A stretch of 25,220 nucleotides of DNA, from positions 1 through 25,220 of IMG/VR virus record IMGVR_UViG_3300033143_005968; one strand, given 5' to 3'. Below, piece by piece: positions 1 through 19,716 of this stretch (its first letter is position 1; every line of letters begins with the position of its first letter). The translations under genes and the position numbers were made by a program. The notes under the pieces are model-generated. The model saw only the letters and a list, made by a program, of their open reading frames with translations. It was not told where the DNA came from and ran no database searches. The DNA comes from a virus.

Positions 1-1
1 A

Positions 2-1679: not shown

Positions 1680-1693
1680 AAGGAGAAAGCTCC

Positions 1694-3212: not shown

Positions 3213-3221
3213 CGGAACCCT

Positions 3222-4754
3222 ATGATAGATTTCCCTATATGGGCTGATTTGGGGATGGATACCACCTCCAAGGAACATAAAGACGGTTGGGAAGGCGAGC
3301 TCGGTAGAGCACAGAAATATTGGTATTACTTTACCGGACACATCTTCAAAGAAACTGTCGACGAATATGAACTTGGCGCTGATATTCCCCTAATGTATCC
3401 GGTTGGTCTGAATTTGACACGTATGTTATGTATGGCGCATGCCGACAGCACATACGGCGAATGGGAAGGGATTCCCGTCACGTTCGATCCAGTCTCTGAA
3501 AATGTTCCACAAGATGGTGACGAAGAAGCGTCCAAGTTAATGAGCAAAGTTCTTCGACACAGCCAGGCAGCTTCGCTGCTCTGGAAAGTAGAACTCGAGC
3601 GGCAAATCTTTGGTGGTTCAGTGATCAAGATTTCTCCGAGTTTAGACAAGAAAGGCATAGTAAGATGGCAACATATCCCGAAGGGAAGTTTTTTCCCGAT
3701 CTGGGATCCAGCAAACCCAAACAATTTGCTGCAGGTTGAAATTGTTACTATTCTTAGTTTAGAACAAGCGAAACTAAAGTACAATTTTGTTCCGAAAGAC
3801 ATCACGCAAAATGTGACTCGTGTTGAAAAGTGGGATAAATCCACTTTCGAAATTCGCATGAATGACGATGTTGTTCGGTCTGGAACAAATCCCTGGGGTC
3901 GCGTTCCATTCGTTTATATCCCACGTTTCCGTGTCAATGATTGGTGGGGAGAAGCGCTGACTGAAATCATCATGCCTTTGCAAGATGAAATGAACATGCG
4001 CATCGGCGATATTGGCGAAGCGATCAATTATAATACACATCCCGTTCGCTGGGGTCTGAATTTGGCCAAGAACTTTACCCAGCAGAATTTCCCTCTCGGC
4101 TCGAATGCTATGTGGGACTTGGGACGCGCTCTTGGTTCCAGCCCGGCACCTTCTGTTGGTGCGCTCGAGCTTAAGAACCCGATACCCGAGGGAACGTTCA
4201 AATATGTCAACTTCTTGTACGACTGGGCACGTACTGCTTCGTTCGCACCTCCTATTGCATTTGGCGAGGACGATGGTGGCGGACAACGCTCGGGCGCCAC
4301 TCTAGAAATTAGAATGTGGCCGTTGATAAAGGCAACTACGCGCTCGCGCGCGTTCCTGCACGATGGCTTGACGGAAGCAATGAAGATTACTGCTTTGATT
4401 TACAAGCAAAAAGGTTTTCCGGGCGTAGACGAAAAAGCTATCGAGGCAATCTTAGAAGACAGGATTGATATTGGTTTCGGCAATATGTTACCGAGAGACC
4501 AGAAGTCGTCTGTCGACGAAGTAGTAAAGTTATTGTCCACATCACCACCTTCTATTTCTCTGGAAACCGCAGTGGATATACTTGGTAGAGGTCCTGGTGA
4601 GTACGCTAGAATATTAGCTATGATAAAACATCCGGAATTGAAAGAGTTCTTCGAAGAGAAAGAAGCGGAAACTCCAATCGGATCAGAAGAAGACACGGAA
4701 AAGAAAAATAAAGATGAGGTAGCCAAAGCCAAAACTGGCAAGGAGCCAAAATGA
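3222..4754 (+). CDS. Portal protein
   Basis: 510 residues, a usual portal length. Portals form the dodecameric ring at one head vertex through which DNA enters and to which the tail attaches. Supporting features are the position two steps after terminase, the early 'YPVGLNLTRMLCMAHADSTYG' segment, the central 'NPWGRVPFVYIPRFR' strand followed by a long helix-forming stretch (EALTEIIMPLQDEMNMRIGD), and an acidic then lysine-rich C-terminal tail (residues about 475-510), typical of portals. The SD is weak (ACGGA), so translation may depend on the upstream gene. Its stop overlaps the next ATG as ATGA. Confidence 0.88.
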   Translation: MIDFPIWADLGMDTTSKEHKDGWEGELGRAQKYWYYFTGHIFKETVDEYELGADIPLMYPVGLNLTRMLCMAHADSTYGEWEGIPVTFDPVSENVPQDGDEEASKLMSKVLRHSQAASLLWKVELERQIFGGSVIKISPSLDKKGIVRWQHIPKGSFFPIWDPANPNNLLQVEIVTILSLEQAKLKYNFVPKDITQNVTRVEKWDKSTFEIRMNDDVVRSGTNPWGRVPFVYIPRFRVNDWWGEALTEIIMPLQDEMNMRIGDIGEAINYNTHPVRWGLNLAKNFTQQNFPLGSNAMWDLGRALGSSPAPSVGALELKNPIPEGTFKYVNFLYDWARTASFAPPIAFGEDDGGGQRSGATLEIRMWPLIKATTRSRAFLHDGLTEAMKITALIYKQKGFPGVDEKAIEAILEDRIDIGFGNMLPRDQKSSVDEVVKLLSTSPPSISLETAVDILGRGPGEYARILAMIKHPELKEFFEEKEAETPIGSEEDTEKKNKDEVAKAKTGKEPK

Positions 4755-5503
4755 CCAAGATAGTCTTCCCTACTGACGAGCATCATCCGTATGCGGACAT
4801 GCGAGCCATTGAGTTAGCACAAAAGATTACAGAAGTGTTCAATCCTGATATTCGGATAGCAGGTAGTGACGGGATAGATTTTTACTCAATTTCGTCATTT
4901 AACAAAGATCCAAACCATTTCAAATATGGTGGATTACAACGAGAAATAAGCGAGTGGCAAGCAACACAAAGAGATTGGATGAGCGCCACTCCCAACGCAG
5001 ATGTGTATTTCCTAATTGGAAATCACGAGGACAGGCTCAAGAGGTATCTCTGGAAGAACCCTGAGCTCTATGGCCTGGAAGCGCTGGAATTAGAGAACCT
5101 ACTTGATTTTGACGGCCTGGGAATTATTATGGCGTCAAAAGGAGGCCTCGAGATGGTCTTCCACGACAAGCTGGTAATAAAGCATGGGAATCTCGTAAGA
5201 AAATGGTCCGGATATACTGCCCGGGGCGAATTGGAAAAAGAGAGTTACGGAATATCCACTCTGAGTGGCCATACTCACAGGGGAGCACAGATTTTCCGGA
5301 AAACAAGACATGGCACGGTTACCGGAGTAGAAGGCTTTTGTTTATGTGACATCGAGCCAACTTACATCAATAACCCAGATTGGCAACAAGGAATTACCTT
5401 GGCTACAGTGACTAACGATGCGGTTCAGTTTGAACTGGTACCCTTTTACAATAAGGGAAATCGTAAAGCAGCCATATGGCGCGGTACTGAATATACCGCA
5501 TAA
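4751..5503 (+). CDS. Calcineurin-like metallophosphoesterase
   Basis: 250 residues with SD AGGAG at 4741-4745. All the metal-binding motifs of the superfamily appear in order: D9-E-H11, S-D40-G-I-D43 in place of GDxxD, GNHE at 90-93, H145 in KHGN, and GHTH at 173-176. It should therefore be an active two-metal phosphodiesterase or phosphatase. The substrate is unknown; phage members of the family include DNA-end and protein phosphatases. It is embedded between portal and head genes and overlaps the portal stop by 4 bases, so it is expressed with the head operon. It is not a structural protein by any visible feature. Confidence 0.88.
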   Translation: MTKIVFPTDEHHPYADMRAIELAQKITEVFNPDIRIAGSDGIDFYSISSFNKDPNHFKYGGLQREISEWQATQRDWMSATPNADVYFLIGNHEDRLKRYLWKNPELYGLEALELENLLDFDGLGIIMASKGGLEMVFHDKLVIKHGNLVRKWSGYTARGELEKESYGISTLSGHTHRGAQIFRKTRHGTVTGVEGFCLCDIEPTYINNPDWQQGITLATVTNDAVQFELVPFYNKGNRKAAIWRGTEYTA

Positions 5504-5511
5504 CTAACAAA

Positions 5512-5604
5512 ATGATTTTACGTAGCAGAGCAGAAACTAGAGGTGCACCGTTTCCCTCTGCGACAGTAAGATTTAAACAATTTTCAGCCTATAACAAGGA
5601 GTAA
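5512..5604 (+). CDS. Possible 30-residue micro-ORF in the decoration-gene leader
   Basis: An ATG-to-TAA frame of 30 residues (MILRSRAETRGAP...) almost fills the gap between the phosphoesterase and the decoration gene. Its last sense codons (AAG GAG) form the SD of the next gene. There is no clear SD of its own, and the same bases can form a strong RNA hairpin, so it may be chance. Translation of it would unfold that hairpin, which would make sense for a leader peptide; this is inference. Confidence 0.25.
   Translation: MILRSRAETRGAPFPSATVRFKQFSAYNKE
5525..5561 (+). promoter_or_regulatory. Structured RNA leader upstream of the head decoration gene
   Basis: GCAGAG (5525-5530) pairs with CTCTGC (5556-5561), and GAAAC (5533-5537) pairs with GTTTC (5550-5554), giving an 11-bp interrupted stem. 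The 12-base loop holds the self-complementary GGTGCACC (5542-5549), which could pair with another copy. No U-run follows, so it is not a standard intrinsic terminator. It ends about 35 bases before the SD of the decoration gene. A role in stability, processing or translation control is inferred. Confidence 0.45.
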
Positions 5605-5609
5605 CACAT

Positions 5610-6107
5610 ATGGCAGTTTACCTCACTGCTGCGAAAAAGGCAGAAATCGTTAAGAACTATAACTTTGCTCTTCACACGAGCTCGTTACAGAACTTCTTAG
5701 ATGAGATTGCTGCCGCCGTGGCACAAGCTGGTATTGTCGAGATTAACGAAACAATCGCCTTTGGTGATTTCACTGATAATCTTGATGCAACTGGCACCTA
5801 TGAAATGCTAGAGGATATTCCCGCTGGCGCGCTGGTTTTAGGGGCAACTCTAACCGCCGTCACTGGATTCACTGGCGACACATCTGCAGCCATCACCGTT
5901 GGTGATGGAACAGACGTGGACCGGTACAATACCGGCACAATCGATGTTTTCACAACTGCAGCGGCTCTCGATCTGGGCGCAATGTCCGGAGCGGCAGTTC
6001 ACATAGTTGACAAAACACCCACTATCATATTGACAAGCGCCGCAGCTTTTGCAGATGTCGACGCAGGATCCATGGATGTAAGTCTTTTTTACGTCATCGC
6101 TGACTAA
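5610..6107 (+). CDS. Probable capsid decoration / head fibre-like protein
   Basis: 165 residues with a strong SD (AAGGAG, 8 bases from the ATG). The first 40 residues are helical (MAVYLTAAKKAEIVKNY...). The rest is a beta-rich domain of short strands and Ala/Gly/Thr/Asp turns (IPAGALVLGATLTAVTG, AAITVGDGTD), ending in an acidic strand SMDVSLFYVIAD. Such small beta proteins beside the scaffold and capsid genes usually bind the outside of the head. No sequence motif proves this; a structural protein is highly likely, decoration is the best guess, and a minor head protein is the alternative. Confidence 0.65.
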   Translation: MAVYLTAAKKAEIVKNYNFALHTSSLQNFLDEIAAAVAQAGIVEINETIAFGDFTDNLDATGTYEMLEDIPAGALVLGATLTAVTGFTGDTSAAITVGDGTDVDRYNTGTIDVFTTAAALDLGAMSGAAVHIVDKTPTIILTSAAAFADVDAGSMDVSLFYVIAD

Positions 6108-6116
6108 GTAGTTTCA

Positions 6117-6134
6117 TGGTTCGGCACCGAACCA
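6117..6134. repeat. 18-bp palindrome, copy 1 (TGGTTCGGCACCGAACCA)
   Basis: Inverted repeat with 8-bp arms around a CA centre, in the gap 9 bases after the decoration gene stop. As RNA it would form a hairpin in the scaffold leader. There is no U-tract after it. The same arms (TGGTTCG/CGAACCA) recur at 11204 and 16491. Confidence 0.8.
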
Positions 6135-6144
6135 CCAAATCAAA

Positions 6145-6158
6145 TCGCTATATAGCGA
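6145..6158. promoter_or_regulatory. 14-bp perfect palindrome upstream of the scaffold SD
   Basis: TCGCTATATAGCGA is perfectly self-complementary and ends where the scaffold SD (AAAGGA, 6158-6163) begins. It lies 10 bases after the 18-bp palindrome. It could be a protein operator, or a small hairpin affecting access to the SD. Function unproven. Confidence 0.45.
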
Positions 6159-6175
6159 AAGGAAACAAAGACAAA

Positions 6176-6880
6176 ATGACCACTAAACCAGTCCCTGTAG
6201 AGCCTATTGTGGCAATTCCAGAGGCGCCATCAGCAGCACCGATTACACCCCCAGTAGCATCCGCTGCCCAAGCACCAAAAGAACCCGCAGTACCTCCTCA
6301 GCAGAATGTGCCCGAAGGTTATGTTACACAAGAGCGTTATACAGGTGCAATTCAAAAGATTGAAACGCTGGCTCTTTCTCAGAAAGACCTGCAGCAACAA
6401 ATTGCTGATAAGTCCTCCTCACTGGAGCAACTGAACAGCCAATTAGCAGAAGCTGACGCGTTACGTAATACTTCTCTGGGCGAGAAGGATACGGAAATCA
6501 CCGGATTGCAAGGGCAAATCACAGATCTTACAGCATCAAATGCTGCCCTCAAATCGCTAGAAGTCAAGATTAACACCTTGAAAGAGGTAGGACGTCCTGA
6601 CTTACTCCCAATATTGGAGCATCTGCCTGATACAACCGATCCTGAGAAACTGAAAGAAGCCTTGAATGCCATGGCCGGCACAGTCGACTCGGCCGTCAAA
6701 GCAAGGTCAGAACAGTTACTCTCCGGGGTCGTTGATACGCCATCTATCTCTGCGTCGTCAGCACCTGATACGCCAGAGGGATGGGTAAAACATATTGAAA
6801 GCTTACCTCTGGGCACCCCAGAACGTGACAAAGCGTTTGATGATTACGGCGCTTTCCTCCACAACTCGGGAGCTCTGTAA
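6176..6880 (+). CDS. Probable capsid scaffolding protein
   Basis: 234 residues directly before the capsid gene. The N-terminus is rich in Pro and Ala (about residues 1-45). A long coiled coil follows (about 55-130: many heptad-like Leu/Ile, LQQQIADKSSSLEQLNSQL), then a charged helical end (GTPERDKAFDDYGAF). This layout is standard for scaffolds, which guide procapsid assembly and are removed afterwards. I chose the ATG at 6176, about 12 bases after AAAGGA. An upstream ATG at 6116 has no SD and would run through both palindromes, adding 20 basic residues. Assignment rests on layout and position. Confidence 0.78.
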   Translation: MTTKPVPVEPIVAIPEAPSAAPITPPVASAAQAPKEPAVPPQQNVPEGYVTQERYTGAIQKIETLALSQKDLQQQIADKSSSLEQLNSQLAEADALRNTSLGEKDTEITGLQGQITDLTASNAALKSLEVKINTLKEVGRPDLLPILEHLPDTTDPEKLKEALNAMAGTVDSAVKARSEQLLSGVVDTPSISASSAPDTPEGWVKHIESLPLGTPERDKAFDDYGAFLHNSGAL

Positions 6881-6903
6881 GCACTAACCAACGGAGATAA
6901 ATT

Positions 6904-8160
6904 ATGACTTCCCTTATCACCGGCGCGCATCTAGCTCAGGGAGCAAATCCCCAGTGGCAACGGTCTTATTACGAGATGCTTTTGCTGGAAACCCTGCGGA
7001 CAAAATCTATTTTGGTGCCTTTCACGGCATACAAAGAGGATTTTAATGCCCGCTCAACCGGTACAATTGTTTACACAGAAGTGTTCGATACTGAACCCGA
7101 CTGGTCAACATTGGCCGAAACCGACATTTGGCTGCGTGGTGCACATCTTGACACGCAAACAATCTCTGTGGACCTCGAAATCCACGGTGACGTTCTGAAA
7201 TATTCCGACTATTCCGAAGTTGTGCAGTATGTCAACAGCGGCAATATGGGCGGACTTGTCAAGAACAAAATCGGTCTAAACCAAAAAGAATACCTGGACA
7301 TTCTTGCTCGGAACGCATTTTTAACACATCCGAACAAAATCTTCGCAGACAGCAAAGCCAGCCGTGCAACACTCGCTGCTGACAGCTTGTTTGAGCCTTC
7401 CCTGGCTCGCCTCGCTCGCCTGCACTTAGAAGAGAATGAAGTTCCCGGAGTTGCAAATCCTTACGACGGTGGAGCAGCGATTGTCTGCGTTACCACACCT
7501 CGCGTGATTTACGACATCCAGGAAGCAGCAGGTTCTGAGTGGAAAGACGCTCAACTGTACGAACAAACCGGTCGTTTATTCACCGGCGAAGTCGGAATGT
7601 GGGGCGGAGTTCGTTTCGTTAAATCCATGCGTATGCGTCTGCGTAATGCAGGTACAGTGGAAGTCGAAACTACACTCGCACAAGATGTTGCACCCGGAGA
7701 CGGCGCATCCTCAACTGTAGATACTGTATACAGTCCAGGACAAGCTGGTTCTGACCGCCTCATCGCAGTAACATCTGCCGCTGGCTTCGCAGTTGGTGAC
7801 TATGTCACTATTTCTGCTGCAGCCAAAGGCGGAGGCGTTGGTGTACCGGAAAGTGACGGCACACAGGAAACACGTCGGATTACGGCTATTGCCACAAACG
7901 ATATTTCCTTCAACAAACCATTCATGAAATCTCACTCGACTAGTGACTACATGACCAAAGGTATCGATGTACATGCTTCGGCAATCATCGGTGGCCCTGG
8001 CGTTGCATTCGCAGTAGGTGAACGGCCAAACGTATTTGCTCCTCCGAAATACGATGACCTCATGATGATTAACCGCATCGGCTGGAGAGGTTTCCTGAAG
8101 ATGCAGCTTTGGCGCCCAGAGTTCTTCGAAGTTGTGGAGAGCGCTGGCTCAACAGACTAA
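6904..8160 (+). CDS. Major capsid protein (N4-gp56-like family)
   Basis: 418 residues with SD GGAG at 6891-6894. The pattern 'YYEMLLLETLRTKSIL' near the N-terminus, 'TGTIVYTEVFD', the 'ISVDLEIHGDVLKYSDYS' strand and the late 'MMINRIGWRGFLKMQLWRPEF' are like the N4-gp56 family of HK97-fold capsid proteins. Residues about 262-332 form a Gly/Ala/Ser/Thr-rich beta insertion (TAAGFAVGDYVTIS-like), probably a surface domain. It sits after the scaffold, and a strong hairpin directly after its stop suits a gene transcribed at very high level. Capsid role is confident; the exact family is less so. Confidence 0.87.
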   Translation: MTSLITGAHLAQGANPQWQRSYYEMLLLETLRTKSILVPFTAYKEDFNARSTGTIVYTEVFDTEPDWSTLAETDIWLRGAHLDTQTISVDLEIHGDVLKYSDYSEVVQYVNSGNMGGLVKNKIGLNQKEYLDILARNAFLTHPNKIFADSKASRATLAADSLFEPSLARLARLHLEENEVPGVANPYDGGAAIVCVTTPRVIYDIQEAAGSEWKDAQLYEQTGRLFTGEVGMWGGVRFVKSMRMRLRNAGTVEVETTLAQDVAPGDGASSTVDTVYSPGQAGSDRLIAVTSAAGFAVGDYVTISAAAKGGGVGVPESDGTQETRRITAIATNDISFNKPFMKSHSTSDYMTKGIDVHASAIIGGPGVAFAVGERPNVFAPPKYDDLMMINRIGWRGFLKMQLWRPEFFEVVESAGSTD

Positions 8161-8166
8161 TTGACT

Positions 8167-8196
8167 CCCGGGGTGAAAGCCCCGGGCTTTAGTCTT
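8167..8196 (+). terminator. Intrinsic terminator-like hairpin after the capsid gene
   Basis: CCCGGGG (8167-8173) and CCCCGGG (8180-8186) form a perfect 7-bp GC stem with loop TGAAAG, followed by the moderately T-rich CTTTAGTCTT. It lies between the capsid stop and the connector SD. The short T-tract suggests partial termination, which would lower tail-gene expression relative to capsid. Confidence 0.7.
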
Positions 8197-8206
8197 AAAG
8201 GAAAAT

Positions 8207-8851
8207 ATGGCGACTACTTGGGCTGAGTTACTTATTGATGTACGGGCTGAATTATCGGACGAGACCGCTGGCACTTATGAATGGTCAGACGCTCTCTTTT
8301 ATATATGGCTGAGAGATGCCGTAGCCGATTATTCTCTGTACAATCCCGTTCTCAAAACAGCTACTCTATCGGTTATAGCGGCTGCCTCCTACGCTTTTCC
8401 GGACGATTACGTTGTTGAAGAATATGTCGAGGCTCCGGCCGGAACATATTTGAGAAAAAGATTTCTTAGCCCCGGTCGTCGTTTTACCAGAACCACCGGC
8501 TCTCCAATTTATTATTGGACAGTCGGTGCCGTAATGTATCTAAACAGCGAAACTACTGAAGATGTGATTTTGACTTATCATGCTACGCATGAACATCCAG
8601 ACGCCGTTGGTGATGATACTTTTGAATTTACCTTCCCGCAAAGAGATGAGGAGCTTATCCGCTTGTATATGAGGGCTAAAGCTCACGAGAAAATGCGTTC
8701 AGGCCAGGCAAGCTTAGACAGGTTCGCTCTCGGCTCAGGATCGCGGGATGACAACCCACTAGAACCCGAGTATGATAATCTCATGGAAGATTATGAGAGG
8801 AAAATATACGACCGTTATGGTGGAGGGATTATTACGCTTTATCGAGCATAA
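8207..8851 (+). CDS. Head-tail connector / adaptor protein
   Basis: 214 residues, SD AAAGGA. It starts with helical 'TWAELLIDVRAELSDETAGTYEWSDALFYIWLRDAV', the usual opening of gp6-like adaptor proteins (DNA passage, ring on the portal). A beta middle (TLSVIAAASYAFPDDY; VGAVMYLNSE; ILTYHATHEHP) and long acidic/basic C-terminal helices (RDEELIRLYMRAKAHEKM) follow. Position right after the capsid fits. It is larger than classic adaptors (about 100-120 residues) because of the beta middle. Confidence 0.72.
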   Translation: MATTWAELLIDVRAELSDETAGTYEWSDALFYIWLRDAVADYSLYNPVLKTATLSVIAAASYAFPDDYVVEEYVEAPAGTYLRKRFLSPGRRFTRTTGSPIYYWTVGAVMYLNSETTEDVILTYHATHEHPDAVGDDTFEFTFPQRDEELIRLYMRAKAHEKMRSGQASLDRFALGSGSRDDNPLEPEYDNLMEDYERKIYDRYGGGIITLYRA

Positions 8852-8854
8852 ACT

Positions 8855-9409
8855 ATGGCATCTATACATGACGTGACGCTCGATTACATCGAAGATGAAC
8901 TAAGGGCAGCGCTTATCACCGAAGTTGATGATGATGATATTGCTCTGGTCGGCCACATGCAGCAAGGTCCTTCACAGGGTAGCCCAGCTCCAGACGCCGC
9001 ACGCATAAGTGTAACAATACACGAGAATGACCCGGACGCTTTTTTCGACAATCCGGCGTCGGCCATCAAAAATGTATGGCCCGACGAAATCGCATTTGTT
9101 GAGACATCCCAAGTAATTACTTGGAAAAGACGCTTTACAATTAAGGCAAGATGTCTATTAGTGCGAACCAAAGAAACTAAAGACGTCGCGAGAGAAATTG
9201 CATCTACATTGCGCACTCGCCTCGAGGACACATTGCTGAGTATGGATTACACAGACGTAGAGGCTACTAATGGAGAGTATGTTTCCAGAAAAGCCGTAGC
9301 AAAATCCATGAAATCAGAAATGATTCAAGCAGGCGGCCCGCCCAATAGTTTCGATTATCACATCAAAGTAAGATTTGATGTTCTAACAACAACGAGGAGT
9401 TTTGTATAA
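8855..9409 (+). CDS. Probable tail completion / head-closure protein
   Basis: 184 residues. The layout is an N-terminal helix (VTLDYIEDELRAAL), an acidic loop, strands 'RISVTIHENDP' and 'WKRRFTIKARCLLV', a helix 'KDVAREIASTLRTRLEDTLL', then C-terminal strands 'SFDYHIKVRFDVLTT'. This alternating fold and place in the order fit a neck or tail-terminator protein. No specific motif is visible. The SD is poor and the gene follows only 3 bases after the connector stop, so coupling is likely. Its last base overlaps the next ATG (TAATG). Confidence 0.6.
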   Translation: MASIHDVTLDYIEDELRAALITEVDDDDIALVGHMQQGPSQGSPAPDAARISVTIHENDPDAFFDNPASAIKNVWPDEIAFVETSQVITWKRRFTIKARCLLVRTKETKDVAREIASTLRTRLEDTLLSMDYTDVEATNGEYVSRKAVAKSMKSEMIQAGGPPNSFDYHIKVRFDVLTTTRSFV

Positions 9410-10449
9410 TGGTTCTTTCCGCTGATAGTTCAGTATTTGGAGTAGCGCAGCAAACAGGCAAGGGTACGCCTAATGTTACTGACGCTGATTTCAAATACAT
9501 ACTTTTCACAGAAGGAGTTCCTACACCTCAGAACATCACTCGCGCTCTTGACCGAGAAGTGGGTGCTGGCGCACTGCCGCAGGGCAGCGTTAAAGTAGGC
9601 GTTCTTTCTGGCGCGCAAATGCAGTTTATCCCACGTCCTCAAACGCTGGGCGAATTGTTATATGCGCAACTAGGTGCTGTGTCTACCGAAGACAATACCA
9701 CCTATTCTACTCACACATTTACATTGCCAACCGACCAGTTTTCACAGCCGTATTATACGCTGAGAACTGGCATGGCAAATACATGGGGTGAGCAATACGA
9801 CGACAATAAGCTAGCTTCGCTCGCTTTACGTTGGCGTGGTGCTGATTTCATGCGTGGCGCATTCGCTTTCCAAGGCGGATTGCCACAAAAGGTTGCCTCT
9901 ATGGCAGCTTGGGCCCCTCAGACTTATATTGACGAGGGTCCTCAATTCTTGTCACCGGTTTCCAGTATCGAAGTGCCAACAAGTACCTCTATCAAGGTAT
10001 TAGAGGGCGCTATCACAATGGGCTCTGCCGTTCCTCTGGATGAGCAGTGGATTGTCGGAAGTTATTATCCCGATGACACCCCAACCGTGAATCGTGCTAT
10101 TGGCCTCACTATGACTGTCTTGATTGAGGATAATACACTTTATCAAAAACTTATGTACGACCCAACTGGTGGGGCAGACTGGACAGCAGACATCTTCAGA
10201 GAAGCGGATATTGCTCTTTCGTTTGTATCCGATCAAGAAGTTGACACTGGAGTTCCATACAGCTTATTGTTTGAAGCTAATGGCCAAAATGCCGCAAGCG
10301 GAGATAGTAATATCCAGTGGTCAGTACAACCAGTGGCAATTCAGGCTGGTCGACAGATGAAAATGATCATCTCAGGCATTTTCACCGCAAGTCCGACCGT
10401 AGACGAACCAATCACTGTAACACTCGTAAATGGCGAAGCATCTTACTAA
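9409..10449 (+). CDS. Major tail (tube) protein
   Basis: 346 residues, SD AGGAG at 9395-9399. N-terminus 'SSVFGVAQQTGKGTPNVTDADFKYILF' is the typical opening of long-tail tube proteins. The remainder is beta-rich with Gly/Thr/Ser turns and a repeated-strand end (TVDEPITVTLVNGEASY). The tube protein polymerises in hexameric rings around the tape measure protein. It directly precedes the tail assembly chaperone pair, the standard order. At 346 residues it is longer than simple tube proteins (about 150-250) and may carry an extra surface domain. Confidence 0.8.
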   Translation: MVLSADSSVFGVAQQTGKGTPNVTDADFKYILFTEGVPTPQNITRALDREVGAGALPQGSVKVGVLSGAQMQFIPRPQTLGELLYAQLGAVSTEDNTTYSTHTFTLPTDQFSQPYYTLRTGMANTWGEQYDDNKLASLALRWRGADFMRGAFAFQGGLPQKVASMAAWAPQTYIDEGPQFLSPVSSIEVPTSTSIKVLEGAITMGSAVPLDEQWIVGSYYPDDTPTVNRAIGLTMTVLIEDNTLYQKLMYDPTGGADWTADIFREADIALSFVSDQEVDTGVPYSLLFEANGQNAASGDSNIQWSVQPVAIQAGRQMKMIISGIFTASPTVDEPITVTLVNGEASY

Positions 10450-10470
10450 ATAGAGCTTTAGGAGGCAGTA

Positions 10471-10932
10471 ATGAGTAATTTTGGAAAATACGCAGTATTA
10501 GACAATGTAAAATATCACCTTGAACGTGAGCCGGATATGTGGTGGGTATTCAAACCACCGACCGCTCGTGAAGAAATTGCGATTAACCGGTTCACGCAAG
10601 GTGGATCCATCAAACAATCTGCAGCGGGCATCGAGCGCAACATTGTTACCAATGCAGAAATTGCTCTTGAAGAGCTTGCACTAACTGTGCAATCCTCAAA
10701 TCTCAAGGGTAAAGACGGCAAGAATATTATCAACACCAAAACAATGAGCGTTGATACTATCCGAGAAGTTGTCCGATCATTCCCAAAAGAACTTTTCTGG
10801 GAACTCTGGGATGCTCTTGGTGCAACTTGCCCTGGCTGGGGCGCTGTTCCGAAAATTACAGACGACGATGATGATGAGTCTGAAGATAGCCCGAAAGACA
10901 GCCCAAAAGAGAAGCCCTCAAAAGAGGGCTAG
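10471..10932 (+). CDS. Tail assembly chaperone, short form (gpG-like)
   Basis: 153 residues with excellent SD AGGAGG at 10460-10465. It has a helical body (EEIAINRFTQGGSIKQSAAG; IREVVRSFPKELFWELWDAL) and an acidic Asp/Glu/Ser/Pro/Lys tail (from about residue 130). It sits between tube and tape measure genes, as lambda G does, and ends in a -1 frameshift cassette. In lambda-like tails this protein and its longer frameshift product keep the tape measure protein soluble during assembly. The role is inferred from position and the frameshift signal. Confidence 0.82.
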   Translation: MSNFGKYAVLDNVKYHLEREPDMWWVFKPPTAREEIAINRFTQGGSIKQSAAGIERNIVTNAEIALEELALTVQSSNLKGKDGKNIINTKTMSVDTIREVVRSFPKELFWELWDALGATCPGWGAVPKITDDDDDESEDSPKDSPKEKPSKEG

Positions 10933-11189
10933 AACTACTTGAGCGCACAGTAAAAGAAGCCGTTGGATACGGAACTAAGGACAAAGTGTTACAAAGCCTT
11001 GTGGAATTGACAATGATAGAAATAACACAAGGAAGGCCATTATTTCCAAATCCAATGGATGAACCAGTCTTTTATAGACGCGCATTCCGCGAATGGGTTT
11101 CCGAAGCAATAAAAGAAAAACAGACGGAAGGCGGAGTGTACGACAAGATTATGAACGATGCGCAGACAGGAAAAATCACGAAGCGATAG
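10471..11189 (+). CDS. Tail assembly chaperone, long form (gpGT-like) by -1 frameshift
   Basis: The -1 frame is open from 10890 to the TAG at 11187-11189. It has no good start of its own but reads as normal protein, including EAVGYGTKDK and MDEPVFYRRAFREW. If the ribosome slips at 10902-10908, the product is 146 residues of the short form plus 93 -1-frame residues, 239 in all. This is the usual long form of the tail chaperone, made as a minor fraction. The fusion is inferred; slip efficiency cannot be read from sequence. Confidence 0.8.
10902..10908 (+). promoter_or_regulatory. Slippery heptamer C CCA AAA for the -1 frameshift
   Basis: In the reading frame of the short chaperone the bases are C CCA AAA, which matches X XXY YYZ. 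After slipping back one base both tRNAs still pair at most positions (CCC AAA). It is the only such heptamer in the window open in both frames (10890-10932), and it sits 4 bases before a perfect hairpin. Confidence 0.82.
10913..10930 (+). promoter_or_regulatory. Stimulatory hairpin of the frameshift site
   Basis: AGCCCTC (10913-10919) and GAGGGCT (10924-10930) form a perfect 7-bp stem with an AAAA loop. It begins 4 bases after the slippery heptamer, close to the spacing needed to stall a ribosome, and contains the start of the short-form stop codon. Confidence 0.82.
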
Positions 11190-11308
11190 CTTCTTTAGAC
11201 GGGTGGTTCGGCATCGAACCAGTGAGCTTCACAAAACACAATACAATTTACGATTACACAAATACACTCTTTGCCGAGGGTGTATTTGTCATTTCTGAGG
11301 ATAATTAA
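11174..11308 (+). CDS. Possible further -1 extension of the chaperone long form
   Basis: After the long-form stop, the next -1 frame reads about 44 residues of protein-like sequence (EAIASLDGWFGIEPVSF, then TNTLFAEGVFVISEDN) and ends in a TAA whose last base is the A of the tape measure ATG. A small independent gene is unlikely: the only in-frame start in the unique region is GTG at 11222 with no SD, and the ATG at 11093 gives an odd Lys/Arg-rich N-terminus overlapping the chaperone. A run of five A at 11171-11175 could allow a second slip, or one A may be missing from the assembly. Confidence 0.45.
   Translation, partial: NHEAIASLDGWFGIEPVSFTKHNTIYDYTNTLFAEGVFVISEDN
11204..11221. repeat. 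18-bp palindrome, copy 2 (TGGTTCGGCATCGAACCA)
   Basis: Perfect 7-bp arms TGGTTCG/CGAACCA around GCAT. It lies about 85 bases before the tape measure start, in the region read only in the further -1 frame. See the copies at 6117 and 16491. Confidence 0.8.
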
Positions 11309-14300
11309 TGAGCTACGACGACGAAGATAATTGGTACGACAAGGCATTCCTTGAGGACGATGACGATCCAACTGGCGTTCCTTTTACAACAGACCATAAT
11401 TTCAGTAGTTCGCGAGCTAGCATAGCTCCTTCGAATGTCTTTAATCAACAAAGCGTTCCTTTTAGACAGGACCGCACTTATACTCATTCGCGAGTTAGTA
11501 GCGCTCCTTCAAATGTCTTTAATTCACCTGGTTCGTATAACGCTTTTGGCTCATATGGTCAGCAGCCCGTAGACGATGGTTTCAACAGTACCACTCCTTC
11601 GACTCTCGATAATACCCACGTTACTCCAGCGGTGAGGGCATGGCTGGATCAGACTCGAAAAGAATACAATTCTGCTAACGAAATCAATGATCGTATATTC
11701 GAAGCAGCCATTCGTCAATCCAGGCCAGCACAAACTGCAAATAGACTTGCAGCCGCTGCCGGAACTGAATTGCTCGATCCGTTAGTTGGCTTTAGAGGAA
11801 CCTATAATGCAATGCAGGCTTCGTCAATAAGCCTGGAAAGTATTCTCGGAACGGAAAATATGTACAGAGGCAAAGGGTCTCTGGATGAATGGGGCAGAGA
11901 ACAAACTGGTCATAGGTTCACTGGTAAAGGTAATGAATTGCGTCTTATCGATGCCTCCAGTGGAGAAGTAAAGCTAGATAAAGATCAAGTAAGAATGGCC
12001 CATGAGGCCACTCGCCAGGTTACAGATCAAGTAGTAGGTCAATCTATTTCTCCTGACGGACAAAATCTTGTCGGCACTATTCATAAAAATATCAATACAG
12101 CAATCGGAAAGTACGTTGATAAGTTAATGCAATCAACGCAGAATGATATAGCTCCGGAAGATGCCGCAATATTCGAAAAAACCATGAAAACCATGTATAA
12201 CCGGATGGTTTCAAAGGTTACTGACCAATTGGCTGGTCAAGATGGTTTCGCCTCGTCTCATGTGAGAGGTCAGGCGTTCAACAGTGCGGTAGATCTCAAC
12301 GTACATAACGAAGCTACGGCTAAAGAAGTACTTTCGAGAATGCCAGTAGGTGCTCAGCAAGCTGTAGATAAAGTTGGATTTACTGCTGCTTACAATAGTC
12401 CGACAGCACAATTTTTCTCTGGCGGTTCAGGCGAGCAGGGCGTTACTCTTGGTGGGTGGCGTCGCGGTGGTAGTAGTGGTGGAATGAACACAGGTGGCGG
12501 CGGCAGGGGTGGAATGGGCGGTCTCATGCATTCCGCATATATCGCTAAAAGAATGTGGAGTTATACTGGTGAGCCGGTTATGGCTGGCGCAGCAGAACAT
12601 GTTAAGTCACAAGGTGAATATGCAGCATTATTCAGAACCGTAACTGGCCAAGATCCAATTACTTCAGATTATGGCGCTCAACTGCGCGCCGATGAAGTTT
12701 CTGGCGCACAAAATGAAGCAGCTTTTCAAAACATAGGCGCTCTCGGAGATGCGGCTTGGGTAGCAAACCAAGGTCCTAATGCGGATGCAAATCAGCGCTT
12801 GATTCAAGGTGGTAAATTAGCCGCGGGCGTTGGATTTATGGGAACCATAGCTGGTGGTGCATTGACATCATTGGCAGCTCCCGGCATTGCTGCAGCAGCC
12901 TCTGCTGGGGTAGCAGTAGGTGGAGGCACGGCTCTTCTGGCTGGTGCTGGAACGGTTTTAAGTGCTGCTGCACTTCCAGTTGCTGGAGCATTAGCTGCTG
13001 GTTTTCTTGGAAACGAAGCATACAACTTGGCAACTGGCTCAGACACTGGTCTCGGTCAGAAATTCATGGGTGGGCTTTACGAGAATGCTGGACAGCGGGG
13101 TCAAATTGGTGCCCTTCGCGCGAAGGGTTACATGGGCCTTGCTACTTCTTTCAATTTAGAAGATCTAGTCAAGGCGTATGACGTCACAGACGAAGAAACC
13201 CAGGCGCAAATGACTCCTGGTATGGCAGCGATGTACGGACAGTCTCAACGGCAAGATGATTTCTCGCCATATGAGAAAACGATTAAAGATGCCGCTACAT
13301 TAACCGGTGGAGACAAGAAGGCCTCTATTGCCCAAGCCAGGGGCCTAGATGTAATGTTTGGCGGGGATTCCGCAAAAATGTTGGATGCAGTTGGTTTGCT
13401 GTCCAGCATTGATGCTCCTCTCCAGGATAGTATCGCAAAAACTATTGGCTTGGCAGCACAGGGTGGTATCTTGCCTGGCGACACTAAGGCAATGGATAAT
13501 TTGATAGACCAGTATGCCGGTACCGATGACGCTGGTCGTTCCGCGCTAACAGAAGAATATGGCGAATACGCTGCCATGGGTGGCATGCTTGGTCAATACA
13601 CTGGTTCTGCTCGCAGTGGCTCTTCCCTAGCCAGGGAAGAAGGCTTGACTGCGATTACCGCTGGAACAACTCAGTCCTATATGGCCGCAGCAACACGCTA
13701 CGGCTCGAACATGGACGATGTTGTAGGATACGACGAAGAAGGAAGGCCTCTTACGCTCGGGCGCGATCTTGCTATGCGCGGAGCTGGCACAACACAACGT
13801 CAAGCATCAATTGATATTGGTGTCGCCGCTCCATTCCAGGCTGCCGGTATGACGGCTGGTACTGCATTTGCACAAGCTGGAAGTCTTGGATTTGAAACTC
13901 CTAGCCAAGTCGGCACATTTAATCAATGGTCTCAAACTAATGAAGCATTCCAGGGACAAGCCAGTATTGCAAGAACGTCCCAATTAGCTAAACTCTCTCT
14001 CGGGCAAAATGTTGCTCAAGGAGCAATGATTGGTAATGTTGCCAGTCAGATGATGATCGGTGGACGAGATCCATATACTACATTTGGCGGTGGTGGATAC
14101 ACTGACCAACAAATGTCGAATTTCACCCGGGCTGCCGGTGGGGATATGAAGGCTGTATCTTATTTGACAAATAGCGGACAGGCGGATATGTCTGCCTTCT
14201 CTATGTTCGATGATGCCGGGCGCAGTAACTTGCAATTCAATGGCGCTAATTTCATGGAAATGAATGCCGGCCAAGCTGCTTTGGGCAATCCTTATTCCGC

Positions 14301-15642
14301 AGGAGTTCAGTCAGCATTTGATAATCTAAACGAGAGAAACCAAGAAACATTCTTGGAAAGCGGAGTGCAGGGAGTTCAGCAAGATTACGCACAACGAGGT
14401 AGAGATTTGTCTCGCGGAAGTCTTGGTGTAGGATTTGCCAAGATTGCTGAGAATAAAGCATATTTATGGGGTGATGATGGCGGTGGCACGTGGGATAACC
14501 CAACCGCTGGTTCCATGTGGGGGCTCCAGGATACGCAACGTGCAATGCAACACCAGTCTTCATTAGCTGGTTTTGGTATGCAACGTCGCAGAATGGACCT
14601 TAATCAACAGTTCGCCGAACAGAGCGAAGGTCTTCAGTCTCGCCAAATGGGAGTTACTCAAGGTTTCCAAAACTGGAACCAAGGCTTTAACAGGCAGTCA
14701 TCCTTAATGCAACGTGGTTACACTCAGCAAAATTGGCAAGCTCAGGATCAGATGAATAGCCTGCAGTTTGGTTGGCAAATGGAAGACGCTGATGAAGCCA
14801 TTCGTATGTCTGGTGGGCGCCAACGCCGACAACTTGTTACACAAAAAGAACGCGCTACTTTAGCTCACAATATAGAAGGCCAGAATACCGAAGATCAACG
14901 GTCTAACCAAGAAGAAATGTGGGCACGGGAAGACGAACGGTTTGAAAAGCAGACTCAATATACAGCCGATCTACAAGAGCTTGAAAATGAACGGTTTGAA
15001 ATGCAAGTCAGTCGTAGAGAAACTTTATCTACACTTGACGAGGAAGATTTTACTCGTCAGAAAAAAGAATATGAAGAAATGCGCAAGTTGAATGAAGAAA
15101 TGATTAAGGTCGAGCGTCAGCACCAGGCCAAGCAAATGGAATTGCAACTTGCTGGCCTCGGTATACAGGCAGCTCAACTCGCTTTGCAAGACGAAATGGC
15201 TGAACAGCTCGAGCCTCTGATCGAAGAGGGCGAGGCTATGGCCGGATGGGCGAAAATAATTGCCGAGTTCGATTTGGATAAATTCTACACTGGAACCGTT
15301 GACATGATTACGGCCATGTCAGTGGTTGATCCCGAAAGCGCCAGGTTGCAAGCTAACGTCCTGGTAGCTATGACAGAGGTTGGTACCGAGAATCCAGACT
15401 CAGTCACACAAACACTTGATGCGTTCGAAGGTACTGTTACAGCATCTAACGCTGTACGAAGGATGCTCGAGAGCATGGCAGAGATCAATATAGGTGGCGT
15501 AAAAGCGCTTGGTTCTGCTCTAAACAATGCGAAATCACTAGATACTAGCGGCATTTATGCTCTCTCTTCACTTGCAAGATCGTCCCACTCAATCAATACA
15601 TACAGAATTCGTGTGCTACAAGACCTAATGAGACAATTCTAA
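11308..15642 (+). CDS. Tape measure protein
   Basis: 1444 residues, the longest head-to-hub gene, SD GAGGA at 11297-11301. Tape measure proteins set tail length and lie inside the tube. In order: an acidic N-terminus, two 26-residue repeats (about 23-74), mostly helical sequence, a glycine-rich linker (about 381-407), a long hydrophobic Ala/Gly-rich block (about 504-574) that can form several membrane segments, more helical/Gln-Ala-rich sequence, and a long coiled coil (about 1085-1310) rich in Glu, Gln and Arg. The hydrophobic block fits a role in crossing the host membrane on infection. No peptidoglycan hydrolase domain is visible. At the usual 0.15 nm per residue the tail would be about 200 nm (inference). 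Confidence 0.93.
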   Translation: MSYDDEDNWYDKAFLEDDDDPTGVPFTTDHNFSSSRASIAPSNVFNQQSVPFRQDRTYTHSRVSSAPSNVFNSPGSYNAFGSYGQQPVDDGFNSTTPSTLDNTHVTPAVRAWLDQTRKEYNSANEINDRIFEAAIRQSRPAQTANRLAAAAGTELLDPLVGFRGTYNAMQASSISLESILGTENMYRGKGSLDEWGREQTGHRFTGKGNELRLIDASSGEVKLDKDQVRMAHEATRQVTDQVVGQSISPDGQNLVGTIHKNINTAIGKYVDKLMQSTQNDIAPEDAAIFEKTMKTMYNRMVSKVTDQLAGQDGFASSHVRGQAFNSAVDLNVHNEATAKEVLSRMPVGAQQAVDKVGFTAAYNSPTAQFFSGGSGEQGVTLGGWRRGGSSGGMNTGGGGRGGMGGLMHSAYIAKRMWSYTGEPVMAGAAEHVKSQGEYAALFRTVTGQDPITSDYGAQLRADEVSGAQNEAAFQNIGALGDAAWVANQGPNADANQRLIQGGKLAAGVGFMGTIAGGALTSLAAPGIAAAASAGVAVGGGTALLAGAGTVLSAAALPVAGALAAGFLGNEAYNLATGSDTGLGQKFMGGLYENAGQRGQIGALRAKGYMGLATSFNLEDLVKAYDVTDEETQAQMTPGMAAMYGQSQRQDDFSPYEKTIKDAATLTGGDKKASIAQARGLDVMFGGDSAKMLDAVGLLSSIDAPLQDSIAKTIGLAAQGGILPGDTKAMDNLIDQYAGTDDAGRSALTEEYGEYAAMGGMLGQYTGSARSGSSLAREEGLTAITAGTTQSYMAAATRYGSNMDDVVGYDEEGRPLTLGRDLAMRGAGTTQRQASIDIGVAAPFQAAGMTAGTAFAQAGSLGFETPSQVGTFNQWSQTNEAFQGQASIARTSQLAKLSLGQNVAQGAMIGNVASQMMIGGRDPYTTFGGGGYTDQQMSNFTRAAGGDMKAVSYLTNSGQADMSAFSMFDDAGRSNLQFNGANFMEMNAGQAALGNPYSAGVQSAFDNLNERNQETFLESGVQGVQQDYAQRGRDLSRGSLGVGFAKIAENKAYLWGDDGGGTWDNPTAGSMWGLQDTQRAMQHQSSLAGFGMQRRRMDLNQQFAEQSEGLQSRQMGVTQGFQNWNQGFNRQSSLMQRGYTQQNWQAQDQMNSLQFGWQMEDADEAIRMSGGRQRRQLVTQKERATLAHNIEGQNTEDQRSNQEEMWAREDERFEKQTQYTADLQELENERFEMQVSRRETLSTLDEEDFTRQKKEYEEMRKLNEEMIKVERQHQAKQMELQLAGLGIQAAQLALQDEMAEQLEPLIEEGEAMAGWAKIIAEFDLDKFYTGTVDMITAMSVVDPESARLQANVLVAMTEVGTENPDSVTQTLDAFEGTVTASNAVRRMLESMAEINIGGVKALGSALNNAKSLDTSGIYALSSLARSSHSINTYRIRVLQDLMRQF
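11375..11530 (+). repeat. Two tandem 78-bp repeats in the tape measure N-terminus
   Basis: Units 11375-11452 and 11453-11530 are 78 bases (26 codons) each. They share VPF, a central SR.S.APSNVFN motif and nearly identical DNA at GCGTTCCTTTTA and ATGTCTTTAAT. They are diverged, so the duplication is not recent. Confidence 0.8.
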
Positions 15643-15643
15643 T

Positions 15644-16018
15644 ATGAATGCATATATAACACTCGACAGTTACAAATACCCTACACTTATGATTGATTGG
15701 GAAAGTCATCCAGTCAGACCTGCAACCGCAGCGGTTATGCTCAATGGAGAAACAGCGGTTACATTTGGGCCGACTGCTCGAACAGCATGGTCTGGTTCTA
15801 TCAAAGCAGAAGTCACCGCTCGTGATACTGGGTGGGGCACTATCACGACTCTAAGAGCAACGCTTGCTAAATTATCAACGTTGTCTTTTACAGATCATTA
15901 TGGTTCTTCCTATACAGTATTGTGCAATATTTCTGGGCCAGAGGTAAGCCTTTCTCCAGTGTGGGACGCTACAGAGAATGAATTTTCAGTTAAGGTTATG
16001 TTAAGGCAGGTTACATGA
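15644..16018 (+). CDS. Probable distal tail protein
   Basis: 124 residues, starting 1 base after the tape measure stop with a weak SD, so probably translationally coupled. Beta-rich content (YITLDSYKYPTLMIDW; AWSGSIKAEVTAR; NEFSVKVMLRQVT) and position between tape measure and hub match distal tail or tail-tip adaptor proteins, which form the ring linking tube to hub. No specific motif. Its stop overlaps the hub ATG as ATGA. Confidence 0.6.
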   Translation: MNAYITLDSYKYPTLMIDWESHPVRPATAAVMLNGETAVTFGPTARTAWSGSIKAEVTARDTGWGTITTLRATLAKLSTLSFTDHYGSSYTVLCNISGPEVSLSPVWDATENEFSVKVMLRQVT

Positions 16019-19000
16019 GAACGCTAAGTGGCGGCGCAATTACACAATTAGCCGAAAGCGAGCGCATAGTTGAGGCTTCTCTTACGATAAGAGATGAACG
16101 ACTTCGATTTGCTGACCAAAGATCCACACAGGTAGATTACCTGGCCGGGGATCTTGTGCTCGCGTATGACGATTGCGTTTACTCAAGCAACGTGTTACGT
16201 GTCGCAGTCGTAAAAGATGGATCGGATTACGAATTATGGTATAACTATATTGATGATTTTGGATCTGTTTGGGACAACTGGACAGATATGTCCATTGCCT
16301 TGGCCGAGAACAGCAGACCCGCAGTCTTCGGCGGCCGAGTTATTTACCTTAAGTCTAACTACGAGCTGGCCTACAAAGACTGGAATGGCACCATTTGGGG
16401 CTCTGAGACAGTAATAGAGACTGTTCCCGGAACACCGACTGCAGATATTGCTATGGTTTCCACGGATATCTTCTATATGCATTATACGCCTGGTTCGACG
16501 TCGAACCATGGCTTTATTATTCGCAAAAGTGTTTCCAGCGCATTTGCTGATCAGGCGTGGGATGGTAGAACAATTGGCGCAGACTTTTATGGTGCCTTTG
16601 ACGCCGTAGCATTCAGCGGCGTGGAATATATTTACTTCTCTGACCACGATGGCGCTCGGGCTTGGGGTATGAGAGTAGACACAGCCGGGATATTCGGCCG
16701 ACCTTTCCCGGTTGTCCCCTTGGATATTGTAGACATTACATCTAAGTTTGTCATGGGGCACGCTTCCGTAATTGACGGAGAAGTATTTGTTACTGGTATT
16801 CTAAAACGCCCAGGTGGCCATTCTATGCATATCTACATGAAAGGCCCTGAAAAATTCTCCATCGGGCGCGACATGTTCATTGCTCAGGCCAATGACAAGG
16901 TAAAATTATACACATACGGTGATGAAACAACAATTGAATACGATCCAATCCCTGGCCAAATTCATGTCGTAAGTGATGAAGTCTGGTACCTCGGTCCTCT
17001 CCTGGCATGGATGGCTCCAGCTACACAATACGTTGGATATGACAATACAGCATTAGAAACAACTATAACTTCGTTCTCTCAATTGGACATTGGCGACGGG
17101 GGCAATGGTTCGAAAAAGTTACGCTTCTCGATCGATCCGAACATTTCTCATGTTGCTATAAGAGAAGGTTCTGTTGTAGAGTTGACCGTTACAATAAATA
17201 GCGAAAATATTGACATGGGAACCTTTCTCATTGATGCTATTGCGGAGGACGAGACAGAATTAGGCTCATATAAAAACATTGCTGCGCGCTCGCGCGCCTC
17301 TAAGACCTTAGATAATTGGGCGTCTGATGCTGATTTTGATTTTTGGGGACAGACTGCCAACGCGGCAAGGCCATATGATTTAGCTGAAGTCATTAGAGCT
17401 GAAGGACTTTGGGATCAGGAAACAGTTGGCGTAGGCAATGTTATTACACTTCCTGTTCTAAACACACAAGGCATTTTATATTCATCCGCCCATTCTGGTA
17501 TGGGCACTATTGCTCAGGGCATGTTTTATTATCCCGATGATGCAGAATTTGCGCCATCATATGGAGTAATAGCTAATTACACACATCAGAGATATACAGC
17601 TACAGGACTAGAACTATATGAAAACTCTGCCCGGCTGGGACACTGGGGTATCGGAGTTATTTTTGAGTTAGACGCGCACACGGGCTCTCCCGGGGTTAGG
17701 GTAACACATTTTTATGAAGACAGTGTCGAGGATATCACTACTTTTGCTTTATCTATTCCTGGTGATACCTGGCACTGGCTTCGCGCGCGATATGAATTTG
17801 GCCATTTGATTATCGATTACAGGCTTGATTCCTCCACTGATTGGACACGCGTAGGCGAGTTAATCATATGTTACGATAGCGAAGACAGCACCTATCACGG
17901 TTTAACAGTTGAGACAGTAACTCTTGCCAACACGGAAGAAACCGAGAGAGGCAGAGCTGCTCTTTATATCAAGAATATTACAGAATATTCTCCGAGTTAT
18001 GGACTATCATCTTCCGGACTGATTGTTGGTGTCGATGATAATGACTTTGCGGAAATTGATGATTACCTTCTCCTTGACCGGGAAATAGTCAAGGTTACAG
18101 ATAAAAGCCCAATGATTGCGCCAAGTTCTAACTTGGATGTAGTTGAAGGGTTTACATTCCCCTCTGCTGACCACTGGGATAGTGATCCAACTGGTTTTAC
18201 CGGGTATGAAATTTATCTCGACGGTAACGGAACAGCGGCTCGAGATGCGTTTGACGATCACGCGTTAGTTATCGTCTCTGGCCCGGGAGAAGGTAGAACT
18301 TTCACGATTACAGAGTATGATAAGATTGCCCCAACACAGTGGACAGACACCGGAGGGCCCTATACTCCTCCGGACAAGTGGACAGATCATATCGATGATG
18401 TTGTTTATGGATCTTGGACGGCTTCTGGGATGCAAAGAATCTTTGTTGCCGAGAATCCCAGTGGCGCTATTTCTGAGGGTTCCGTCGTAAGAATTGTACC
18501 ATCTTTTACGATCACACGAGCACAACTCTCTACTGATGCAACTACGCACATATCCGGAATAAATGTAAGTTTTTACAAGGATTTGTCCATTTATTGTCGT
18601 GATTTCAATTATTTCACAACGGAGCCAGAATATAGCGTCGCCGACATGGCTGCTGAGATTACAGGCAAGGCTGGAGCAGGAGGTGTTTCGGCACCGAACC
18701 GCTTAACCAATCAGGCGAAAGTATCTGCAGGTTGGGATTTACAGACAGAAATAGCCGCCACCGAACAAACAGCCAGAAGCTTTGTTGCACACTTTAATCT
18801 CAATGACCCAGATACAGCAGGCGGGTTTGGTATTGCTTTTGCTCTTTTGAAAGACCCAGATACGGATGCTTATTCTGACGGGCGCATTGTCATGATATAC
18901 GAAGACCGCGTAGATTACTTCGAATATCACCCGACGGTTCCGGTACTTATTGAAAGTTATGACTTGGATATAGCCTATGACAGTGGCCCGTCCACGATCT

Positions 19001-19716
19001 CGGTTTACGATGAATTTGTTTCTGTATATATTCAACAGAAACATATCTGCACATTCGTAGATCGTGATGTTGCTTCAATCCAGGCTGATGTTATTGTACC
19101 CATTCCCCAATGGTACGCTGGTGTTGTTTTGCACAATGCTTGCGACGTGGATCCTCTTTGGACTGAGGTATCTCAGCGATGTGATAATTATGTTTTAACC
19201 ATGGGTACTTATGGCAGTAGTTTGCTTTCTACATTGCTTGGTGAACAGAGAATTTATTTTACAGACGACGTAGACGGCACGTTGCGCATGTTCACTGACC
19301 GTGTTATAATCAATAGCGGTTCTGCAGTCGATTTCTTACTGGACGAGCAAAGCCGTCAGAACGAAGATGGTTTGTTCACGCGCGTTCGAATTGAGGGCGC
19401 TGAAGTAGCAGAGCAATTTGATACAGCGGCAATGATTGATCATGGAAATTTGTTTGTCCTGGCCAATGCTTCGGATTTGATAGAGTATGATGATCATTAT
19501 CGTGAAGCATTAAATTTACTTGAAGACAGCACCACGAACGCGGCGCCTATTACCCTTTTGGGTTTGGCTGATCCTCGCGTAGAAGCAAATGATACATATA
19601 TCATTGACGACGGTAGCGAAAAGACTATCTTAGTTGATTCCGTGAATTTCTCTATGGATGTTATGGATATAGAAGTATCCTTTGTTATGAATATAGAAGG
19701 AAGAAATGGCGACTAA
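16015..19716 (+). CDS. Large tail hub / tip protein with probable beta-propeller and lectin-like insertions
   Basis: 1233 residues. The N-terminal 60 residues and the C-terminal block (about 1120-1233: VRIEGAEVAEQF, LLGLADPRVEANDTYIID, MDIEVSFVMNI) look like the ends of siphovirus hub proteins. Inserted between are a tryptophan/tyrosine-rich repetitive region at about 70-330 (YELWYNYID, ELAYKDWNGTIWG, YEYIYFSDHDGAR-like strands) that suggests a beta-propeller, and two beta-sandwich-like regions (about 490-660 and 880-1060, with WHWLRARYEFGHLIIDYRLD and GGFGIAFALL) resembling LamG/concanavalin folds. Such insertions often bind carbohydrate. Function in host contact is inferred. SD AGGCAGG precedes the start; the gene overlaps the distal tail gene by 4 bases and the fibre by 11. 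Confidence 0.7.
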   Translation: MRTLSGGAITQLAESERIVEASLTIRDERLRFADQRSTQVDYLAGDLVLAYDDCVYSSNVLRVAVVKDGSDYELWYNYIDDFGSVWDNWTDMSIALAENSRPAVFGGRVIYLKSNYELAYKDWNGTIWGSETVIETVPGTPTADIAMVSTDIFYMHYTPGSTSNHGFIIRKSVSSAFADQAWDGRTIGADFYGAFDAVAFSGVEYIYFSDHDGARAWGMRVDTAGIFGRPFPVVPLDIVDITSKFVMGHASVIDGEVFVTGILKRPGGHSMHIYMKGPEKFSIGRDMFIAQANDKVKLYTYGDETTIEYDPIPGQIHVVSDEVWYLGPLLAWMAPATQYVGYDNTALETTITSFSQLDIGDGGNGSKKLRFSIDPNISHVAIREGSVVELTVTINSENIDMGTFLIDAIAEDETELGSYKNIAARSRASKTLDNWASDADFDFWGQTANAARPYDLAEVIRAEGLWDQETVGVGNVITLPVLNTQGILYSSAHSGMGTIAQGMFYYPDDAEFAPSYGVIANYTHQRYTATGLELYENSARLGHWGIGVIFELDAHTGSPGVRVTHFYEDSVEDITTFALSIPGDTWHWLRARYEFGHLIIDYRLDSSTDWTRVGELIICYDSEDSTYHGLTVETVTLANTEETERGRAALYIKNITEYSPSYGLSSSGLIVGVDDNDFAEIDDYLLLDREIVKVTDKSPMIAPSSNLDVVEGFTFPSADHWDSDPTGFTGYEIYLDGNGTAARDAFDDHALVIVSGPGEGRTFTITEYDKIAPTQWTDTGGPYTPPDKWTDHIDDVVYGSWTASGMQRIFVAENPSGAISEGSVVRIVPSFTITRAQLSTDATTHISGINVSFYKDLSIYCRDFNYFTTEPEYSVADMAAEITGKAGAGGVSAPNRLTNQAKVSAGWDLQTEIAATEQTARSFVAHFNLNDPDTAGGFGIAFALLKDPDTDAYSDGRIVMIYEDRVDYFEYHPTVPVLIESYDLDIAYDSGPSTISVYDEFVSVYIQQKHICTFVDRDVASIQADVIVPIPQWYAGVVLHNACDVDPLWTEVSQRCDNYVLTMGTYGSSLLSTLLGEQRIYFTDDVDGTLRMFTDRVIINSGSAVDFLLDEQSRQNEDGLFTRVRIEGAEVAEQFDTAAMIDHGNLFVLANASDLIEYDDHYREALNLLEDSTTNAAPITLLGLADPRVEANDTYIIDDGSEKTILVDSVNFSMDVMDIEVSFVMNIEGRNGD
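16491..16508. repeat. 18-bp palindrome, copy 3 (TGGTTCGACGTCGAACCA)
   Basis: Fully self-complementary over all 18 bases. It lies inside the hub gene, read as PGSTSNH, a different phase from the copy at 11204. Confidence 0.8.
18684..18701. repeat. 18-bp palindrome, degenerate copy 4 (TGTTTCGGCACCGAACCG)
   Basis: Two changes from copy 1, at the third and last bases, leave a 5-bp inner match on each side. Inside the hub gene, read as GVSAPNR. Weaker evidence than the other three copies. Confidence 0.5.

Follow-up and report, generated by a model that had tools for sequence, protein, structure and literature searches.

A tail chaperone gene pair of a tailed phage is followed by a gene-like third reading frame, possibly split from it by a one-base change

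The window, the whole 25,220-base stretch of an IMG/VR virus record analysed here, encodes, judged by its genes, the head and tail of an uncultured tailed phage. The portal gene was identified by a PHROGs profile match (phrog_64, E 6.2e-15), and the capsid protein has a relative in a Bacteroides phage (E 6e-9). The tail tube gene (9409–10449) matches PF18906 (E 1.2e-8) and phrog_290 (E 3.5e-13), and is followed by a 153-residue open reading frame, the short, gpG-like tail assembly chaperone (10471–10932, + strand, as are all features below). The tape-measure gene (11308–15642, 1,444 residues), named by its position and length, has a GAGG 7 nt 5′ of its ATG and no family match in the libraries searched. 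Near its start, at 11375–11523, are two copies of a 71-nt direct repeat that are 76% alike.

Towards the end of the short chaperone gene lies a slippery heptamer, CCCAAAA (10902–10908), read as C CCA AAA in the short-form frame by arithmetic from the ATG at 10471. Four nucleotides 3′ of the heptamer is a 7-bp hairpin (AGCCCTC/GAGGGCT, 10913–10930), and the fold of 10890–10960 has a z of −2.84. The −1 frame that would supply the T part of a gpGT-like long form spans 10890–11189, and the end at 11189 given in an earlier note on this DNA was confirmed as the TAG at 11187–11189. This frame overlaps the short form without a start of its own in the overlap, its sole listed start being a GTG at 10986, 96 nt inside, and over 10944–11165 its codon log-odds are 0.17 bits per codon. 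The position of the pair between the major tail protein and the tape measure fits a G/GT arrangement, as do the hairpin and the in-frame heptamer within the overlap. Neither chaperone form has a match worth naming in Pfam, PHROGs, NCBIfam or phage records. Tail chaperone families diverge beyond recognition, so the pair was assigned by its architecture. The first frameshift site is textbook, and the arrangement is that of an ordinary G/GT pair in every tested feature except sequence similarity.

A third frame, −1 relative to the long form, runs without a stop from 11078 to a TAA at 11306–11308, the final A of which is the first A of the tape-measure ATG at 11308; the junction is thus placed as the earlier note had it. 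The same TAA/ATG overlap (TAATG) is used elsewhere in the window, at 9409 and 24331. The reading that concerns us extends from 11171 to 11308, and its description as protein-like is upheld by a codon log-odds score trained on the window's genes with the gap excluded. Scored over 11192–11305, the third frame reaches 0.325 bits per codon, against a mean of 0.361 (sd 0.175) for in-frame gene windows, 42% of which lie at or under the third-frame score, and a mean of −0.384 (99th percentile 0.078) for wrong + frames. The remaining two + frames of the gap score −0.26 and −0.64. The third-frame score is attained by none of 755 open wrong-frame + segments and by 14 of 2,214 open reverse segments, counted in overlapping windows. 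It is attained by 0.16% of dinucleotide shuffles (n = 5,000), with 0.02% both attaining it and remaining open; the frame was chosen by eye, and a factor of about 3 for that choice applies to these chance figures. Openness alone is unremarkable: 16% of shuffles have that frame open, and 47% have at least one open frame. The score holds when training is confined to upstream genes (0.286) or downstream genes (0.322), and amino-acid composition alone gives 0.30 for the third frame, 0.27 for the gene mean and −0.30 for the wrong-frame mean. The signal is weak in 11190–11235 and concentrated in 11235–11300, a segment that partly coincides with a 14-bp hairpin. Without the third frame, the 118 nt left before the tape measure would exceed every other spacer in the window (106, 68 and 46 nt), none of which shows a coding-like signal. 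The predicted protein has no homologue among viral contigs, phage records and protein family libraries, and an AlphaFold model of it alone has a mean pLDDT of 57. The third frame is probably coding now, or was until recently.

Plausible starts for the third frame are limited to an ATG at 11093, deep within the long form, an ATA at 11186 and a GTG at 11222, in keeping with the earlier remark that no convincing start serves it. The ATG at 11093 was rejected because the third-frame score is strongly negative across 11085–11115. Reinitiation at the ATA, which overlaps the TAG, or at the GTG would make the third frame a separate small gene, a reading that would suit the peak of coding signal after 11220 and the tight gene packing common in this phage. 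ATA is a very rare start codon. Neither codon is preceded by a Shine–Dalgarno sequence at a normal distance, as inspected by eye, and codons 11174–11185 also lean slightly towards the third frame (about 2 bits); a separate gene is therefore very unlikely. With no start of its own and a textbook first shift upstream, the third frame is most likely part of the long form.

The optimal two-frame path switches from the long-form frame to the third frame at 11178–11180 and is almost flat over 11160–11186. Within this flat zone is a run of five A (11171–11175), in the in-frame sequence GGA AAA ATC; no XXXYYYZ heptamer is present. In-frame NNA AAA ANN occurs at only 7 of the 7,735 codons of the window's genes, and this rarity makes its presence in the switch zone suggestive. 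The run suits slippage and a change of homopolymer length equally. It had been singled out before as the obvious place for either a second slip or a lost base: its location in the switch zone bears this out, and of the two, the lost base is favoured, a slip being the lesser reading at a site that lacks the heptamer.

The only contig found to cover this spot is the sister contig IMGVR_UViG_3300033155_002050, which shows no difference from the window over 10000–12000 and also has five A. Loss of one base from the record by assembly or sequencing error, an idea to which a homopolymer lends itself and which six A in a close relative would have favoured, is disfavoured by this second IMG/VR contig, which differs elsewhere and may share a sample or project with the first; we regard such an error as highly improbable. 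A mutation in the lineage is still compatible with five A in both contigs, since the sister may belong to the same phage population. Over 1–9749 and 9834–13986 of the window, the two contigs differ at 18 single bases, 13 of them synonymous and one creating a stop codon in the tape measure of the sister (window 13735). The sister also has an in-frame 84-bp absence in the tail tube gene (window 9749–9834), and because several differences cluster at this junction, part of the sister contig may be misassembled. The tail tube deletion and the tape-measure stop may be either real variation or misassembly.

A more distant relative, contig JAUUYL010000058.1 (L018) of a Lentisphaerota metagenome-assembled genome (MAG), has 75–81% DNA identity over aligned parts of window 123–8160, and its portal and capsid proteins are 92% identical to those of the window. 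The contig ends before the tail genes, and the remainder of its phage was not found in the same MAG. Its binning there is a hint at the host of the window's phage, which is otherwise isolated, and the binning may be wrong. A frameshifted end of TerL in the window was considered and rejected, as the same kind of end is present in this relative. Viral-contig scans with protein queries (long form, tail tube, tape measure, TerL, capsid, a portal alignment and the third frame) returned the sister contig and one portal match, 22% identical (L021); when the capsid was aligned to six distant homologues, the result was too divergent to serve as a scan query. A capsid search of 387 genomes of the phylum gave no further relative, genome G002 being its sole match, and a tail tube search of 345 genomes of the class gave no match. 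Phage records searched with the chaperone DNA and proteins, TerL and the protein of 16015–19713 yielded nothing useful, as did plasmids searched with the capsid.

A used second −1 slip, on A AAA A, would generate a third nested chaperone, giving G, GT and GT plus about 40 residues in the manner of mouse mammary tumour virus (MMTV). The coding-like third frame without a start is what such a slip would call for, the rare in-frame A run lies in the switch zone, and its five A are common to both contigs. A small 5-bp hairpin (GAAGC/GCTTC, 11180–11193), with the TAG partly in its loop, begins 4 nt past the run, and the fold of 11170–11225 has a z of −2.81. Retroviruses are known to use two −1 shifts in one message (PMC5009743), and one frameshift-predictor paper includes a motif called ‘five’ among candidate −1 slippery motifs (PMC10885494). 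Against this, without an XXXYYYZ heptamer, re-pairing could be made only by the P-site lysine tRNA; the one relative spanning the spot matches the window base for base there; and literature searches found no phage tail gene with two shifts. The shift in phage tail chaperone genes was measured at 6–7% in one study (PMC3711429). Two such steps in series, the second of them weaker, would yield very little of the longest form. Two successive shifts giving three nested chaperones, the rarest with its own part in starting tail assembly, are considered unlikely.

Stems larger than the 5-bp hairpin lie at least 28 nt downstream of the A run. One is a 14-bp hairpin (11258–11289) 5′ of the tape-measure ribosome-binding site, with a z of −4.36, a fold equalled in none of 200 shuffles and no T run. 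Another is an 18-bp palindrome, TGGTTCGGCATCGAACCA (TGGTTCGNNNNCGAACCA), at 11204–11221, 14 nt from the long-form stop and starting 28 nt past the A run. Allowing up to three mismatches, TGGTTCGNNNNCGAACCA has 7 matches in the window, against 0.90 expected and none of 100 shuffles attaining 7. Besides the copy at 11204–11221, exact copies lie at 6117–6134 and 16491–16508, and a two-mismatch copy at 18684–18701. The sister contig likewise has 7 matches and includes two further strong ones, at 1291–1308 and 8231–8248, the latter differing on both sides of its outer pair (C-G for T-A). The Lentisphaerota relative has 5 matches, of which those at 15211–15228 and 6020–6037 correspond to window 6117 and sister 8231. 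Of the three occurrences of the 16-base core in the 2.6-Mb MAG, two lie on the phage contig. A viral-contig scan with the palindrome returned the sister contig and L015, which has no protein similarity to the window and whose match was taken as chance.

The palindrome had been proposed as a pausing hairpin for the second slip. That role does not stand up, as the palindrome is distant from the A run and recurs, in the window (6117, 16491 and 18684), the sister and the relative, at places without a frame change; it was rejected as a specific frameshift signal. Being dispersed in the phage and its relative and near-absent from the rest of the MAG, it is a phage element rather than a signal for this frameshift, with an operator or an RNA hairpin as candidate roles. 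In the spacer at 6108–6175, before a scaffold-like gene, the palindrome is accompanied by TCGCTATATAGCGA just 5′ of the ribosome-binding site, and it is almost unchanged in the Lentisphaerota relative. Elsewhere, a 41-bp island containing TATTTTATAAT (sister 272–312, relative 1261–1301) is 97.6% identical between two contigs whose surroundings have diverged, and is perhaps a promoter.

These hairpins bear on whether 11190–11307 could be an untranslated spacer before the tape-measure gene, with the third frame open by chance. Three hairpins are present, the fold of 11160–11307 has a z of −3.63, the dispersed palindrome is found likewise in the 68-nt spacer at 6108–6175, and the corresponding position in Gordonia phage GMA7 is taken up by a hairpin spacer. 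In codon usage and in amino-acid composition alike, the third frame scores as genes do, at levels seldom attained by chance, and palindrome copies occur inside genes (window 16491 and sister 8231) as well as in spacers, so the palindrome is no marker of untranslated DNA. A spacer open by chance is thus an improbable explanation.

The reading that we tentatively prefer is that of an otherwise ordinary chaperone gene whose single long frame has been disrupted, at the A run or close to it, through a change of one base. On this view, a single −1 ribosomal shift at CCCAAAA would yield an ordinary G/GT pair, with a T part that originally extended, or in intact copies would extend, for about 40 more residues to the TAA joined to the tape-measure ATG. 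A one-base change of length at or near 11171–11175 would bring ribosomes into the frame that stops a few codons later, so that most long-form protein would here lack its last part, the longer form arising only when ribosomes now and then slip at the A run. The coding-like score of the third frame, the lack of a usable start, the switch at 11160–11186 with its five A, the TAA/ATG join and the absence of an XXXYYYZ sequence all speak for a one-base change. The two frames would formerly have been one, and we infer a mutation or, with lower probability, an assembly error, and not a programmed shift. A one-base change is favoured over a programmed second slip, though not strongly, because the second site lacks both a heptamer and evidence of conservation. 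No intact copy of the chaperone gene was found, the sole contig covering it being identical to the window there, which counts against this reading. Two further observations weigh against a one-base change: the mostly synonymous differences between the contigs elsewhere suggest that selection acts on the phage, so that a harmful mutation would not be expected to persist, and the long form has a basic C terminus (GKITKR) like that of GMA7 (PRGKRR), where a hairpin spacer and then the tape measure follow, so that 11189 could be a natural end. If the one-base change is real, it is a caution that gene prediction cuts the chaperone short, leaving out about 40 residues. A genuine second shift would mean that a phage tail gene carries two programmed frameshifts in succession, a case absent from our literature searches, and would add a third level to the known control of tail assembly by the G:GT ratio.

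The locus resembles G/GT of phage lambda and its tailed-phage relatives in its short gene, the −1 overlap without a start, the XXXYYYZ heptamer with a hairpin, and the position between tail tube and tape measure. It differs from them in having no detectable similarity to known families or phage records, and in that a coding-like reading continues here in a third frame. Orf17/Orf18 of GMA7, annotated as a conserved programmed frameshift, share the gene order and the basic end of the long form, and a 137-nt spacer with hairpins separates them from the tape measure; the GMA7 spacer, however, is interrupted by stops in each of its three frames and contains no third coding frame, and the tail tube proteins are only about 25% identical. 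Two successive −1 changes, if they took place, would give three nested products, as in the double −1 frameshift of gag-pro-pol in MMTV and HTLV (PMC5009743), and the chaperone would then be a phage counterpart of the retroviral arrangement, although the second site is efficient and programmed in those viruses and is a bare A run here.
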